Origin: Methylotenera sp.
GTDB taxonomy: Bacteria > Pseudomonadota > Gammaproteobacteria > Burkholderiales > Methylophilaceae
Reading direction: 5' to 3'
Length of the DNA: 64,000 nt
NCBI RefSeq assembly: GCF_029946165.1
Contig: NZ_JAQSDZ010000016.1
Span: forward strand, 62,001-126,000
A program made the translations under genes and the position numbers. The notes beneath the pieces were generated by a model. It was given only the letters and a program-made list of their open reading frames with translations, was not told the origin of the DNA and did no database searches. The stretch's first letter is position 1; every line of letters begins with the position of its first letter. Positions 20,763 through 52,398 of this stretch are shown here, in pieces.

Positions 20763-22247
20763 ATGTCATTTTGCAGAAAGTATATTTTGCGCGTTTTATT
20801 TGTCACCTCTGAAGTATTTCCATTAATAAAAACTGGCGGCTTAGCTGATGTAAGCGGCTCACTACCTTCCGCATTACAGAACTTAAATGTTGACGTACGT
20901 ATTTTAGTGCCTGGTTATCACTCAGTATTAAAGCAACTTGATGACTTACATCACCTCGCTATGCTAAAAAATTTACCCGTCATTGAAAATGCTGAACTTA
21001 TGATGGGAACAATTTTAGATACTGACATCAAAGTCATGGTGATAAAAGCAGCAGGTTTATATGAACGCGATGGTGGCCCTTATATGGATGCAACGGGGCA
21101 GGAGTGGTTAGATAACCCGGTGCGCTTTGGTATATTATCAAAAGTAGCTGCGGTGATTAGTGGCCCTAACAGCCCAATTCCTGATTGGCAACCTAACATT
21201 GTGCATTGTAACGACTGGCAAACAGGTTTAACACCAGCGTATATGAAGCTAGTAGAGCACTCGCCAGCAAAGTCGATTATTAGTTTGCACAATATGGCAT
21301 TTCAAGGCTGCTATGCGCCAGGTTGGCTGACAACCTTAGCTTTACCTCACAGCAATTTCACCTTGGAAGGTTTTGAATACCATGGTCAATTATCCTTTTT
21401 AAAAGCTGGCATTTTCTATGCGGATGCTATTACAACGGTAAGCCCAAGCTATGCAAAGGAAATTCAAACTGCAGAGTTTGGTTTTGGTCTTGAAGGCTTA
21501 CTCAGCAAACGCAGCAATGAACTAAAAGGCATTCTTAATGGCATTGAAACTGAGGAGTGGAGCCCTGAGACAGATTTTCATCTAAGCAGTAACTATAGCG
21601 CAAGTAAATTAGCTGGCAAAAAAGAAGTTAAAAAGGCTTTGCAGCAAAGACTTGGGCTTCAAATTGATGCAAATGCACCATTATTAGGCGTAGTTAGTCG
21701 TCTAACTCATCAAAAAGGCTTAGATATGCTGGTGCCTATCGTACAAAAACTGGTGGATGCTGGTTGCCAATTAGCCTTACTAGGGAGCGGCGAAAGTGCA
21801 CTTGAAAATGCCTTCCGTCATCTCGCGAATGATAATCCCAATAAAGTCAGCATCACTATTGGCTATAACGAACAGTTATCACATCAAATCATGGCTGGTT
21901 GCGATATGTTCATCATGCCATCACGTTTTGAACCCTGTGGATTAAACCAATTGTACGGCTTGGCATACGGCACCCCGCCTATCGTAAACGCCACTGGTGG
22001 GCTTGCTGACTCAGTGATTGATACCAATATCATCACCTTTAAAAACAAAACGGCGAATGGATTTGTGATGAGCGAAGCCAGCCCTGCAAGCTTGTTAAGT
22101 TGTATTAAACAAGCCTTAAATGTATTCACTAATGATACAAAAGCTTGGCAGCAGATTCAAAAGAATGGCATGCAACAGAATTTAAGCTGGGATAAAAGTG
22201 CTTTAGAATACTTGGCCGAATATAGAAAATTGCTTGTAGATAACTAA
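20763..22247 (+). CDS. glgA: Glycogen synthase (ADP-glucose-dependent)
   Basis: GlgA (GT5) extends alpha-1,4-glucan from ADP-glucose. The protein has 494 residues. The N-terminal fold shows VLFVTSEVFPLIKTGGLADVSG, with KTGGL as the ADP-glucose-binding loop; the C-terminal domain shows GVVSRLTHQKGLDMLVP and IMPSRFEPCGLNQLYGLAYG, which holds the conserved catalytic Glu. AAGG 5 bp before the ATG supports the start at 20763, which adds eight residues to the common family start. It completes the pathway with glgC and glgB, 14-16 kb away. A candidate small RNA follows directly. Confidence 0.96.
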   Translation: MSFCRKYILRVLFVTSEVFPLIKTGGLADVSGSLPSALQNLNVDVRILVPGYHSVLKQLDDLHHLAMLKNLPVIENAELMMGTILDTDIKVMVIKAAGLYERDGGPYMDATGQEWLDNPVRFGILSKVAAVISGPNSPIPDWQPNIVHCNDWQTGLTPAYMKLVEHSPAKSIISLHNMAFQGCYAPGWLTTLALPHSNFTLEGFEYHGQLSFLKAGIFYADAITTVSPSYAKEIQTAEFGFGLEGLLSKRSNELKGILNGIETEEWSPETDFHLSSNYSASKLAGKKEVKKALQQRLGLQIDANAPLLGVVSRLTHQKGLDMLVPIVQKLVDAGCQLALLGSGESALENAFRHLANDNPNKVSITIGYNEQLSHQIMAGCDMFIMPSRFEPCGLNQLYGLAYGTPPIVNATGGLADSVIDTNIITFKNKTANGFVMSEASPASLLSCIKQALNVFTNDTKAWQQIQKNGMQQNLSWDKSALEYLAEYRKLLVDN

Positions 22248-22288: not shown

Positions 22289-22305
22289 TTGGCACGCTAA
22301 ATGCT
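22289..22305 (+). promoter_or_regulatory. Candidate sigma-54 (-24/-12) promoter
   Basis: TTGGCACG, four bases, then ATGCT: eight of eight at the -24 element and four of five at -12 against the known consensus YTGGCACG-N4-TTGCW. The GG and GC dinucleotides are exactly 12 bp apart, as sigma-54 requires. It begins 42 bp after the glgA stop, and the predicted start falls near 22316. No enhancer-binding site was recognised upstream. Confidence 0.6.
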
Positions 22306-22315
22306 TTATTTATAC

Positions 22316-22377
22316 TATGCTTCTCCAAAGCAAGTTTCTCCTCCCTCTAGGGCGTCTTAACAGACGCCCTCTTTTTT
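22316..22377 (+). ncRNA. Candidate small RNA with CUCC/CCUCC anti-SD motifs
   Basis: From the predicted sigma-54 start to the T-run, the transcript is about 62 nt. It would hold a small 5' hairpin (TGCTT / AAGCA, 22318-22332) whose loop is CTCCA, then an unpaired pyrimidine stretch (22333-22348) containing TCTCCTCCCTCT, then the terminator. The exposed CUCC and CCUCC runs are complementary to Shine-Dalgarno sequences, the pattern of trans-acting translation repressors. There is no ORF in it. It could instead be only the 3' UTR and terminator of glgA; promoter quality and the compact architecture argue for an independent RNA. Confidence 0.5.
22349..22377 (+). terminator. Rho-independent terminator (glgA / small RNA)
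   Basis: Perfect 9-bp arms AGGGCGTCT / AGACGCCCT with a TAAC loop, followed by CTTTTTT. Strong terminator for + strand transcripts. Confidence 0.92.
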
Positions 22378-22416: not shown

Positions 22417-22980
22417 TTACTTAACAATAAAGTGCTCACGATAATATTTTAATTCATCGATAGACTCATAAATATCAGCCAATGCCTCGTGCTTACTGGC
22501 CTTTTTAAATCCTGTGTAGATTTCTGGTTTCCAACGACGAGCCAACTCTTTAAACACACTGACATCCAAATTACGATAATGGAAATAGCTTTCCAAATCT
22601 GGCATATAACGCGCCATAAAACGTCTATCCTGACAAATTGAGTTGCCGCACATTGGTGATTTATTAGCAGGTACAAATTGCTTTAAAAATGCAATCATTT
22701 GAACTGTGGCTTGAGCTTCATCCAAAGTTGAAGCTTTCACTTTTTCAATCAAGCCAGAACGACCATGCGCCCCCTTATTCCATGCATCCATACCGTCTAA
22801 AACCGCATCACTTTGATGAATTACAAACACTGGTGACTCACCTAATACATTCAAGTCCGCATCGGTAACAACCGCAGCAAGTTCTAAAATACGGTCAGAA
22901 TCTGGCAACAAGCCACTCATTTCCATATCAAGCCAAATTAAATTATTCTGATTGGTACTACTAGTTGTTTCAGCCATCAT
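22417..22980 (-). CDS. orn: Oligoribonuclease
   Basis: Orn is the DEDDh 3'-5' exonuclease that degrades 2-5-nt RNAs and pGpG, the end product of c-di-GMP breakdown. From the ATG at 22980 the protein has 187 residues (MMAETTSS...[12 protein letters not shown]); a longer reading to 23031 adds residues unlike the family. DEDD residues are visible in WLDMEMSGL (D, E), [11 protein letters not shown] (D) and [11 protein letters not shown] (H, D). It complements the c-di-GMP enzymes nearby (11.8, 25.8 and 27.4 kb). Confidence 0.94.
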
Positions 22981-23145
22981 GATTTCCATTAAAATATAAG
23001 TTATTAAGCAAACTTGATGAACTAACATCAAGAAAATGCTTCACAATACCAACATATTAACTTATTTCACTTCACCTTACATTTAACGATTACACATATC
23101 TATCCATCAATGATAGTTAGATATTAATTAGAGACATTTAAACAC

Positions 23146-50943: not shown

Positions 50944-52398
50944 TTGATTAAGCACGCGCATCTAAACACATACGATCAACTCAGGCCAATTAAAATAATT
51001 GCCTTAGCAGCTTGCTTTTCAACAGTTTTAACAGCATGTAGCTTTCAAAAATATGTTGCTAAACCCATTGAACCTTCAACTGCTATAGCCAAATTTGAAT
51101 TAAAAGATCCTTTTGGCAAGCCGTTTATTGAATACCTCTCAATTAATGGTTATACAAGCGATGAATTGCCAGTTCGTCAATGGGGGCTAGATGAGCTTAC
51201 TTATTGTGCCCTTTTCTTTCATCCCAGTTTAGATGTTGCCCGCGCACAGTGGCGTGCTACTCAAGCATCAGGAGCCAGAGCTGCACAACGCTTAGCGCCT
51301 ACACTTAATGGTAACTTAGCACACAGCGATGATCCCGATCCATCAAAAAAGCCATTTGCCTTCGGCTTAAGCATTGATATACCAATAGTAACCGCGAATA
51401 AACGTGAAATACGTATAGAGAACGCCCAACATTTATCAAAAGCAGCCAAGCTTAAAATTGCGCAAATCGCTTGGCAACTACGCAATAACATTGCGCAAAC
51501 GCTGACTGAATATGCATTCAATGAAACTCAATTACACTTACTGCATATAGAAGAGTTACGCCACGAAGAAATAGTGAATATCTACCAAAAGCGTGTCAGC
51601 GTTGGCGTAGCCTCTAATATTGAGTTAAGTAATGCTAAACTACGATTACAAACCATCAGCTCTACAGTCAACTCTGCGCAGCAAACTAAACTGATTCTGC
51701 TATCTAAACTTGCTAGCAATATAGGAGTCCCGCTTGCAAATGTAGTAACAATGTCACTAGATATTGATCAGAAGCGACCAGAATACAACCTCACTAACAC
51801 CGAGCTTCAAACCACGACATTACTTAACCGTCTTGATATTAGAATTGCGCTAGAGCGCTATGCGGCGGCAGAAGCTAAATTGAAATTGGAAATTGCTGGG
51901 CAGTATCCTGATCTGGTTATTAGTCCAGGTGCAGCTTATGAATTTGGCGATAACATCTGGTCACTTGGTTTATCTGGTCTGCTTAGCTTGCTGAATAAAA
52001 ACAAAGTGGCAATTGCTGAGGCAACTATGTTACGCGAGGTTGAGGCTGCCCAATTTGAAGACTTGCAAACCAAAGTCATTTTAGAGGCAAATATTGCTAA
52101 TGCAGAAGTCATTCAAGCTAAGAAGGCGCTAGAAAATCAGCAGCGCTTACTGGCTCAACAGCAATCTAACACCCAACGCATGCAACGCAAGTTTACCGCA
52201 GGGGATATTGACAGGTTAGAAATGACTTATGCTCAACTAGAAGTTATAAATGCGGAGAAGAATGTAGCCTTAGCCAACTTTCAGCTAAACAAATCATTAG
52301 ACCAATTAGAAAATACTTTGCAAAAGCCGCTAGCGAGTGAAGTTTCTGCGAGTTCAAAAAGTGTTAACGCTGCGTTTAATTTAGAGGGTGAGAAATGA
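50944..52398 (+). CDS. TolC/CusC-type outer-membrane efflux lipoprotein
   Basis: A 484-residue outer-membrane factor of an RND efflux system. A lipoprotein signal ends in STVLTACS (lipobox Cys), and the mature part has the duplicated long-helix organisation of TolC proteins, with YCALFFHPSLDVARAQWRA and LLNRLDIRIALERYAAAEAK marking the two repeats. The start is TTG (MIKHAHLN). The stop overlaps the adaptor start (ATGA), so the three efflux genes are an operon. Confidence 0.9.
   Translation: MIKHAHLNTYDQLRPIKIIALAACFSTVLTACSFQKYVAKPIEPSTAIAKFELKDPFGKPFIEYLSINGYTSDELPVRQWGLDELTYCALFFHPSLDVARAQWRATQASGARAAQRLAPTLNGNLAHSDDPDPSKKPFAFGLSIDIPIVTANKREIRIENAQHLSKAAKLKIAQIAWQLRNNIAQTLTEYAFNETQLHLLHIEELRHEEIVNIYQKRVSVGVASNIELSNAKLRLQTISSTVNSAQQTKLILLSKLASNIGVPLANVVTMSLDIDQKRPEYNLTNTELQTTTLLNRLDIRIALERYAAAEAKLKLEIAGQYPDLVISPGAAYEFGDNIWSLGLSGLLSLLNKNKVAIAEATMLREVEAAQFEDLQTKVILEANIANAEVIQAKKALENQQRLLAQQQSNTQRMQRKFTAGDIDRLEMTYAQLEVINAEKNVALANFQLNKSLDQLENTLQKPLASEVSASSKSVNAAFNLEGEK

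Follow-up and report, generated by a model that had tools for sequence, protein, structure and literature searches.

Qrr of Vibrio and NrsZ of Pseudomonas are small RNAs (sRNAs) tied to sigma-54, and GlnZ of the enterics likewise depends on this factor. The CcsR/cuckoo RNAs, which lie next to DUF1127 genes, carry CCUCC loops. The described RNAs closest to the one reported here are summarized below. MmgR of Sinorhizobium is a 77-nt RNA that was reported to be induced by NtrC and repressed by AniA and that limits PHB granules; a review table gives both RpoD and RpoN for it (PMC7143759). SisA of Caulobacter represses many mRNAs via a 10-mer anti-Shine-Dalgarno (anti-SD) motif, with one target proved by compensatory mutation (PMC12559287). 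NcS25 of Burkholderia represses a porin and contains a 7-nt region complementary to the porin SD sequence (PMC10117139), and S17S of Bordetella pairs at or near ribosome-binding sites and represses via anti-SD sites (PMC11722255). GlnZ, which derives from the glnA 3' UTR, links nitrogen state with carbon flow (PMC9731577), and CJnc230 of Campylobacter, which depends on RpoN by way of flgE, contains a putative anti-SD stretch (PMC11187230). A literature search under Methylophilaceae and "sRNA" returned no bacterial sRNA as judged by titles and the starts of abstracts, and there was none among the matches listed in broader searches.

Here we describe a predicted sRNA gene between glgA and orn in Methylotenera sp. 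The analysis was centered on a window, the whole stretch of 64,000 nucleotides of contig NZ_JAQSDZ010000016.1, which also carries rne and crcB. The features of the locus are as follows.

20763..22247, + strand: glgA (glycogen synthase), the upstream neighbour, over the NF001899 cut-off and supported by synteny.
22289..22305, + strand: predicted sigma-54 promoter, with TTGGCACG as the -24 and ATGCT as the -12 element; its TGGCA and TGCTT blocks are conserved at fixed spacing in the family loci.
22316..22316, + strand: predicted transcription start, counted with C22304 as -12 and consistent with a near-fixed distance from box to hairpin.
22316..22377, + strand: predicted small RNA gene of about 62 nt, from fold, alignment and covariance model.
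22318..22332, + strand: hairpin 1, UGCUU-CUCCA-AAGCA, a 5-bp stem with the loop CUCCA; first anti-SD site, UUCUCC.
22335..22348, + strand: unpaired stretch with UUUCUCCUCCCUCU, the second anti-SD site; its UCUCC is conserved.
22349..22377, + strand: intrinsic terminator, a perfect 9-bp stem (22349-22370) with the loop UUAA, followed by C and T6.
22417..23031, - strand: orn (oligoribonuclease), the convergent downstream neighbour, over the NF003765 cut-off and supported by synteny.

The gap between glgA and orn is 169 nt long and holds both the sigma-54 box and the RNA. The box, which reads TTGGCACG-CTAA-ATGCT, begins 42 nt downstream of the glgA stop (22247), and its GG (22291-22292) and GC (22303-22304) are 12 nt apart, so that it fits YTGGCAYR-N4-WTGCW. 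Counting from C22304 places the predicted +1 two nt ahead of hairpin 1, in agreement with the 5' end near 22316 that was given in a preliminary description made from the letters of this DNA. Sequence and fold also bore out the coordinates of that description and its account of the box, the hairpin with its CUCCA loop, the unpaired segment and the terminator. The segment 22316-22377 folds with z = -5.46, and none of 200 shuffled versions reached equal stability.

To determine how widely the locus is kept, we searched 150 genomes of the family. With 101 bases that included the promoter, blastn gave a match at E <= 0.1 in 65 of the 150 genomes (55 of the 109 of good quality). Thirty sites found in this way were aligned without the promoter to build a covariance model of the RNA alone, R1, which matched 89 of the 150 genomes at E < 1e-6, the false match in G049 being among them, and 139 at the loose threshold of E <= 1. 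We scored 94 loci, consisting of the 30 training sites, 60 further places and four more R1 loci; they span 84 of the 89 genomes with E < 1e-6, seven weaker genomes and three second hits, and five of the E < 1e-6 genomes (G075, G081, G099, G125, G142) lie outside the loci read. All 30 training sites carry the box, a count that is not independent because the query that selected them contained the promoter. Among the 64 loci outside the training set, which were picked by the RNA-only R1 and represent related species and not 64 independent events, 59 have TGGC-N8-TGC upstream. In these 59 the box lies 27 nt from model position 1 in 46 loci, 26, 28 or 29 nt in six, and 34-35 nt in seven.

Five loci outside the training set lack the box. 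Three of them (L143, L149, L151) were rejected as family members; they are not at the glgA/orn locus and look false. The other two, in genomes G043 and G010, are L115, with no box, and L119, with TGT in place of TGC; both keep the RNA in syntenic position, and a promoter switch is possible there. The RNA core, again without the promoter, was searched for as an exact pattern in 84,980 species genomes and found at 48 places. Forty-five of these carry the box no more than 45 nt upstream, and the same 45 have glgA or orn nearby (both in 38). The other three places belong to a planctomycete, an archaeal MAG and a member of the Opitutaceae; they lack the box, and neither a terminator in the roughly 70 nt inspected nor glgA or orn on the surrounding DNA retrieved was seen there. 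Alignment across Methylophilaceae, a check proposed in the preliminary description, thus found the -24/-12 box, the CUCC motifs and the terminator conserved in the family loci. These comparisons confirmed that the observation is far beyond chance and point to a real syntenic sRNA family.

The distribution has gaps in the reduced genera g13 and g15, where the RNA was not found adjoining orn in ten genomes. Nine of these ten have an rpoN match, and an NtrC-like activator was present in all four that were checked. No box was found next to orn in G122, G009, G021 and G031 either, and G078 and G024 have divergent forms next to orn. One locus, L194, comes from a MAG labelled Sulfuritalea, on a contig that carries the RNA together with a GlgA 82% identical to that of the window; this contig is probably mis-binned.

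We next consider whether selection has maintained the structure of the RNA. In 96 model-aligned matches (90 distinct), 91.7% of cells pair and 12 of 13 pairs have changed on both sides; none of 500 shuffles reached any of five covariation measures, and all slid versions scored far lower. The matches include the 30 training sites, two weak antisense hits and the three false loci, and the values lean towards the model, because the alignment was fitted to it. Hairpin 1 has 95.9% of its cells paired, with both-side change in four of five pairs, and the terminator 89.2%, with both-side change in all eight modelled pairs. In 30 aligned sequences the letters of the terminator are highly variable, UCUCC in the unpaired strand is invariant, and the UCC of the hairpin 1 loop hardly varies; among 42 diverse sequences both have more exceptions, UCUCC still being nearly invariant. 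A coding peptide was rejected, as an ATG near the 5' end occurs in just 11 of 89 loci and no ORF is conserved. Alignment and covariation thus agree with the short terminated RNA presenting CUCC motifs that had been described, and the locus has the traits of a trans-acting sRNA, namely its own promoter, a terminator, a covarying structure and a conserved unpaired CU-rich seed.

The promoter was examined in the 89 box-bearing loci. They had been selected by TGGC-N8-TGC, so that these letters are fixed by choice, and only the others are informative. Beyond the selected letters, A follows TGGC in 100% of loci and the next base is C or T in 99%, while the two T after TGC are kept in 97% and 94%; linker positions 7-11 and the 40 nt upstream carry less than 0.8 bit. 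Two conserved blocks, a fixed spacing and a variable linker across the family loci support the assignment to sigma-54 made in the preliminary description, and rpoN is present in 141 of the 150 family genomes, including that of the window. The same bases also contain a sigma-70-like sequence, TTGGCA-16-TATACT, which matches at 10 of 12 positions in 22289-22316. This could be the real promoter of an ordinary sigma-70 sRNA, the -24/-12 match being fortuitous. However, its -10 half is not conserved, with at least five of six matches in 20 of the 89 loci against 14.6 +- 3.5 when the stretch was shuffled, whereas the TT after the -12 TGC is. Moreover, a start about 7 nt past this -10, near 22323, would fall inside the covarying hairpin 1 and destroy it.

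The same alternative would hold if the RNA were a piece of the glgA 3' UTR. In the window no separate glgA terminator precedes the box, and read-through could yield a 3' end. In genera g3, g14, g16 and g17, however, a terminator-like hairpin closes glgA between its end and the box, which makes the RNA a unit of its own in these genera. Read-through from glgA was therefore rejected as the sole source, given such hairpins in several genera, and we regard an ordinary sigma-70 RNA or a 3'-UTR fragment as highly improbable. Synteny with glgA is strong, since glgA before and orn after the RNA are found in 84 of the 94 loci and glgA only in four, but it is not universal. Two loci, L136 and L147, have orn after the RNA and crcB in place of glgA before it, and four have neither gene beside them, namely L121 and three false loci. 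G026 has the RNA twice, and its second copy, L121, lies away from glgA and orn and has a sigma-54 box. The RNA thus looks like a unit of its own for which an adjoining glgA is dispensable. A link to carbon storage through glycogen, as had been suggested, is not supported: two genomes keep the RNA without glgA alongside, and a second copy lies elsewhere in one genome.

We then compared the RNA with described families. A scan of the window with Rfam gathering scores returned three tRNAs alone, and none of 20 homologous loci reached an Rfam threshold. Below threshold, the RNA matched suhB/MmgR (RF00519) over its full length with 22.7 bits against a gathering score of 41 (E 0.0095 for 251 bases against all of Rfam) and NcS25 (RF02869) with 22.3 bits against 46. 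For RF02278, with a gathering score of 50, the best match in the genome of the window had 19.9 bits and lay at another place, and there was none at the locus at E <= 10. Membership in RF00519, RF02869 and RF02278 was rejected accordingly, all scores being below gathering. In a search of 299 genomes of the phylum, RF00519 had an over-threshold match in 62, and none in the genome of the window under stricter filters.

The closest likeness is to the alpha-r8 RNAs (MmgR of Sinorhizobium, RF00519 "suhB", and SisA-D of Caulobacter), which likewise consist of a first hairpin, an unpaired CCUCCC-type anti-SD stretch and a terminator. Both groups share UCCUCCCU, alpha-r8 loci reading GUUUCCUCCCUA and the glgA-orn RNA GUUUCUCCUCCCUC. 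The first hairpins differ, being of the GCUU-CUCCA-AAGC type in the glgA-orn RNA and mostly GCCC-UYCUU-GGGC in alpha-r8; in the 30 best alpha-r8 loci the hairpin, mostly GCCC-GGGC, comes with GUUUCCUCCCUA and a terminator. In these 30 loci no sigma-54 box was found in promoter position, the two pattern matches spanning the RNA start. The glgA-orn RNA could be a distant true member of alpha-r8 that was moved or inherited into Methylophilaceae, in line with the identical order of hairpin, CUCCC stretch and terminator and with the full-length sub-threshold match. On the other hand, the gathering score was missed in the window and at all 20 homologous loci, the box is absent from alpha-r8 promoters, and short CU-rich RNAs with terminators may converge. 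We consider common membership improbable. The preliminary description had known of no counterpart; none was indeed found at the glgA-orn site, but MmgR shares the layout and is reported to be NtrC-induced (PMC7143759).

Other RNAs are more remote. NfeR1 (alpha-r14) of Sinorhizobium, likened here by description, is also tied to NtrC and exposes the anti-SD motif CCUCCUCCC in unpaired regions; it differs in having three hairpins with the motif in each and in being repressed by NtrC and activated by LsrB (PMC10746234). NcS25 of Burkholderia is likewise conserved and shares the small first hairpin, the UCUCC stretch and the terminator; it differs in lacking a sigma-54-like motif upstream and in not responding to nitrogen depletion (PMC10117139). 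S17S of Bordetella and the bdhR1 "toxic sRNA" (RF02278) are likewise short CU-rich RNAs of beta-proteobacteria; the S17 RNA differs in having a sigma-A promoter and RNase E processing (PMC11722255). GlnZ and the main form of CJnc230 are cut from mRNAs, in contrast to the glgA-orn RNA, which appears to start at its first base from a sigma-54 promoter of its own.

To identify the likely activator, we sought enhancer-binding proteins in 18 selected genomes with PF00158 and read the matches with E below 2e-7. In five reduced genomes that have both the RNA and the box (G003, G020, G037, G067, G076), the sole strong match with GAFTGA is NtrC-like, and the NCBIfam ntrC model was over its cut-off in the three of these in which it was run (G003, G037, G067) and in G013 as well. 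G020 and G076 have one additional degenerate protein without GAFTGA. G058 had no strong PF00158 match, and G049 was not counted, its model hit being false. These genomes are drafts of 92-99% completeness, in which a further activator could be missed. The genome of the window has 13 PF00158 matches.

Upstream of the box no conserved NtrC site was found: scores of at least 7.5 were reached in 3 of 89 regions there, no more often than in the controls, where the counts were 22 of 89 for stretches inside glgA and 3 of 89 for orn. An exact NtrC-type site precedes the box in G020 only, no enhancer site is conserved family-wide, and the words enriched upstream read as glgA codons. Two local features were noted. 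In six loci of g10 (L106, L112, L115, L116, L119, L131), the region some 100 nt ahead of the box holds an inverted repeat of the type AGCAAACTGTTA-N8-TAACAGTTTGCT, whose L115 version is imperfect and differently spaced; it is a possible activator site and is not NtrC-type. Five g20 loci (L126, L129, L130, L134, L135) have TGCAYTTTATGAGTGC-type palindromes that resemble NtrC sites some 1030-1045 nt before the box, inside glgA, which may be a coding coincidence.

Enhancers can sit far away or be weak. For this reason, and because NtrC is the only strong GAFTGA match in the five reduced genomes bearing the RNA, we hold NtrC to be the likely activator, with moderate confidence, despite the missing conserved site. 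The nitrogen control proposed in the preliminary description is therefore plausible on indirect grounds: the activator survey agrees with it, but the upstream sequences do not contribute a conserved NtrC site. Alternatively, sigma-54 would make the RNA on activation by another enhancer-binding protein that responds to stress, carbon or a surface signal, in which case it would not be a nitrogen-status RNA in the larger genomes. The absence of a conserved upstream NtrC site, the 13 PF00158 matches in the genome of the window and the non-NtrC-type repeat of g10 favour this view, whereas the sole activator found in the five reduced genomes and a promoter of the same type throughout speak against it. 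We rate it as less likely than NtrC, though the most serious of the competing possibilities.

Taken together, we propose that the locus is a stand-alone gene encoding a trans-acting sRNA. Sigma-54 RNA polymerase would initiate at about 22316, most likely upon the signalling of nitrogen shortage by phosphorylated NtrC, and the transcript would end at its own terminator, at 22377. Hfq, for which the genome has the gene hfq, probably would sit on the U-tail. Two UUCUCC-type anti-SD sites, in hairpin 1 and in the unpaired CU-rich stretch, would be exposed, and pairing with purine-rich ribosome-binding sites would block the translation of several mRNAs. By analogy with SisA and S17S, the two CUCC sites and the U-tail probably serve anti-SD repression. 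Promoter, RNA architecture, conservation and place are supported directly by comparison of sequences; NtrC as activator, Hfq binding, the repressive action and the targets are what we infer. Overall, we have good, though not firm, confidence in a sigma-54 (probably NtrC) controlled, probably Hfq-dependent anti-SD repressor RNA.

The searches for targets, which covered a small part of the genome's genes, gave no convincing candidate. The sequence GGGAGGAG before ATG occurred zero to one time per genome in six genomes, against zero to three times for the reversed pattern. In a pairing screen of 48 window genes, read for the 14 of lowest energy, the lowest-energy gene had z = -1.74, and the mean z was +0.35; in a syntenic screen of 29 orthologue groups, each with copies from at least three relatives, none held up, and its best conserved partner was rejected, its start being mis-set. 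The lowest-energy partner, the start of a gene at 52395, the second in an operon with a CusA/CzcA-like RND pump (TAGAGGGTGAGAAATG), pairs with the RNA at -21.3 kcal/mol; it was rejected as a target, the pairing being within chance for 48 genes.

The conserved bases also bear on a different mode of action, in which the RNA is a sponge or decoy for other sRNAs or for the 3' end of the orn mRNA and not a repressor at ribosome sites. The end of orn is about 40 nt away and convergent, and there is a precedent for sponges of anti-SD RNAs in CrfA of Caulobacter (PMC12559287). A sponge of such RNAs would need purine-rich sequence, however, while the conserved bases are CU-rich and anti-SD, and the terminator letters that face orn are highly variable. 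This reading is very improbable, and the anti-SD repressor is preferred.

Finally, we asked how far similar arrangements extend in the class. R1, which lacks the promoter, had a match at E <= 0.1 in 84 of 274 genomes; 29 loci were returned, 25 were read with their upstream sequence and four short ones were not properly read. TGGC-N8-TGC occurred in six of the 25 (L066, L071, L073, L075, L082, L087). Three of them look real, with a TGGCAC box, a hairpin, a CU-rich stretch and a terminator: L066, L071 (f152) and L073 (f35). L075, L082 and L087, the last two with boxes inside the RNA match, and the other R1 class loci read were judged to be chance. A second model, R2, was built with the promoter, for which it therefore selects; it is in effect a sequence model because its automatic structure paired the two promoter blocks. 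It matched 25 of 369 class genomes at E <= 0.01, including that of the window, and gave 25 new loci, of which 21 were read and four short ones skipped. The box was present in 10 of the 21, and seven (L256, L257, L265, L266, L273, L274, L275) had the full set of -24/-12 box, first hairpin, CU-rich stretch (CUCC or CCCUC type) and terminator; L258, L259 and L271 were rejected, having a box but no terminator. The seven full-set loci fall in six other families (f35, f38, f66, f68, f120, f152), with L257, L273 and L274 at the same sites as L073, L066 and L071, and the letters of their hairpins are unrelated. As a wider class these loci are suggestive only. A wide, undescribed class in Pseudomonadota, of short anti-SD RNAs that start from sigma-54 just before a first hairpin and curb translation generally when nitrogen is limiting, is therefore a tentative and rather doubtful idea. 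If it were true, the unrelated hairpin letters would mean either repeated invention or very old descent.

What has been found from the sequence alone is a new small-RNA family in Methylophilaceae with a clear promoter class. If NtrC drives the RNA, it would form an MmgR-like, post-transcriptional arm of the nitrogen response in this family. The likely dependence on a single activator in the reduced genomes makes control by NtrC directly testable there, and the finding also raises the question of whether sigma-54 and anti-SD RNAs were joined several times.
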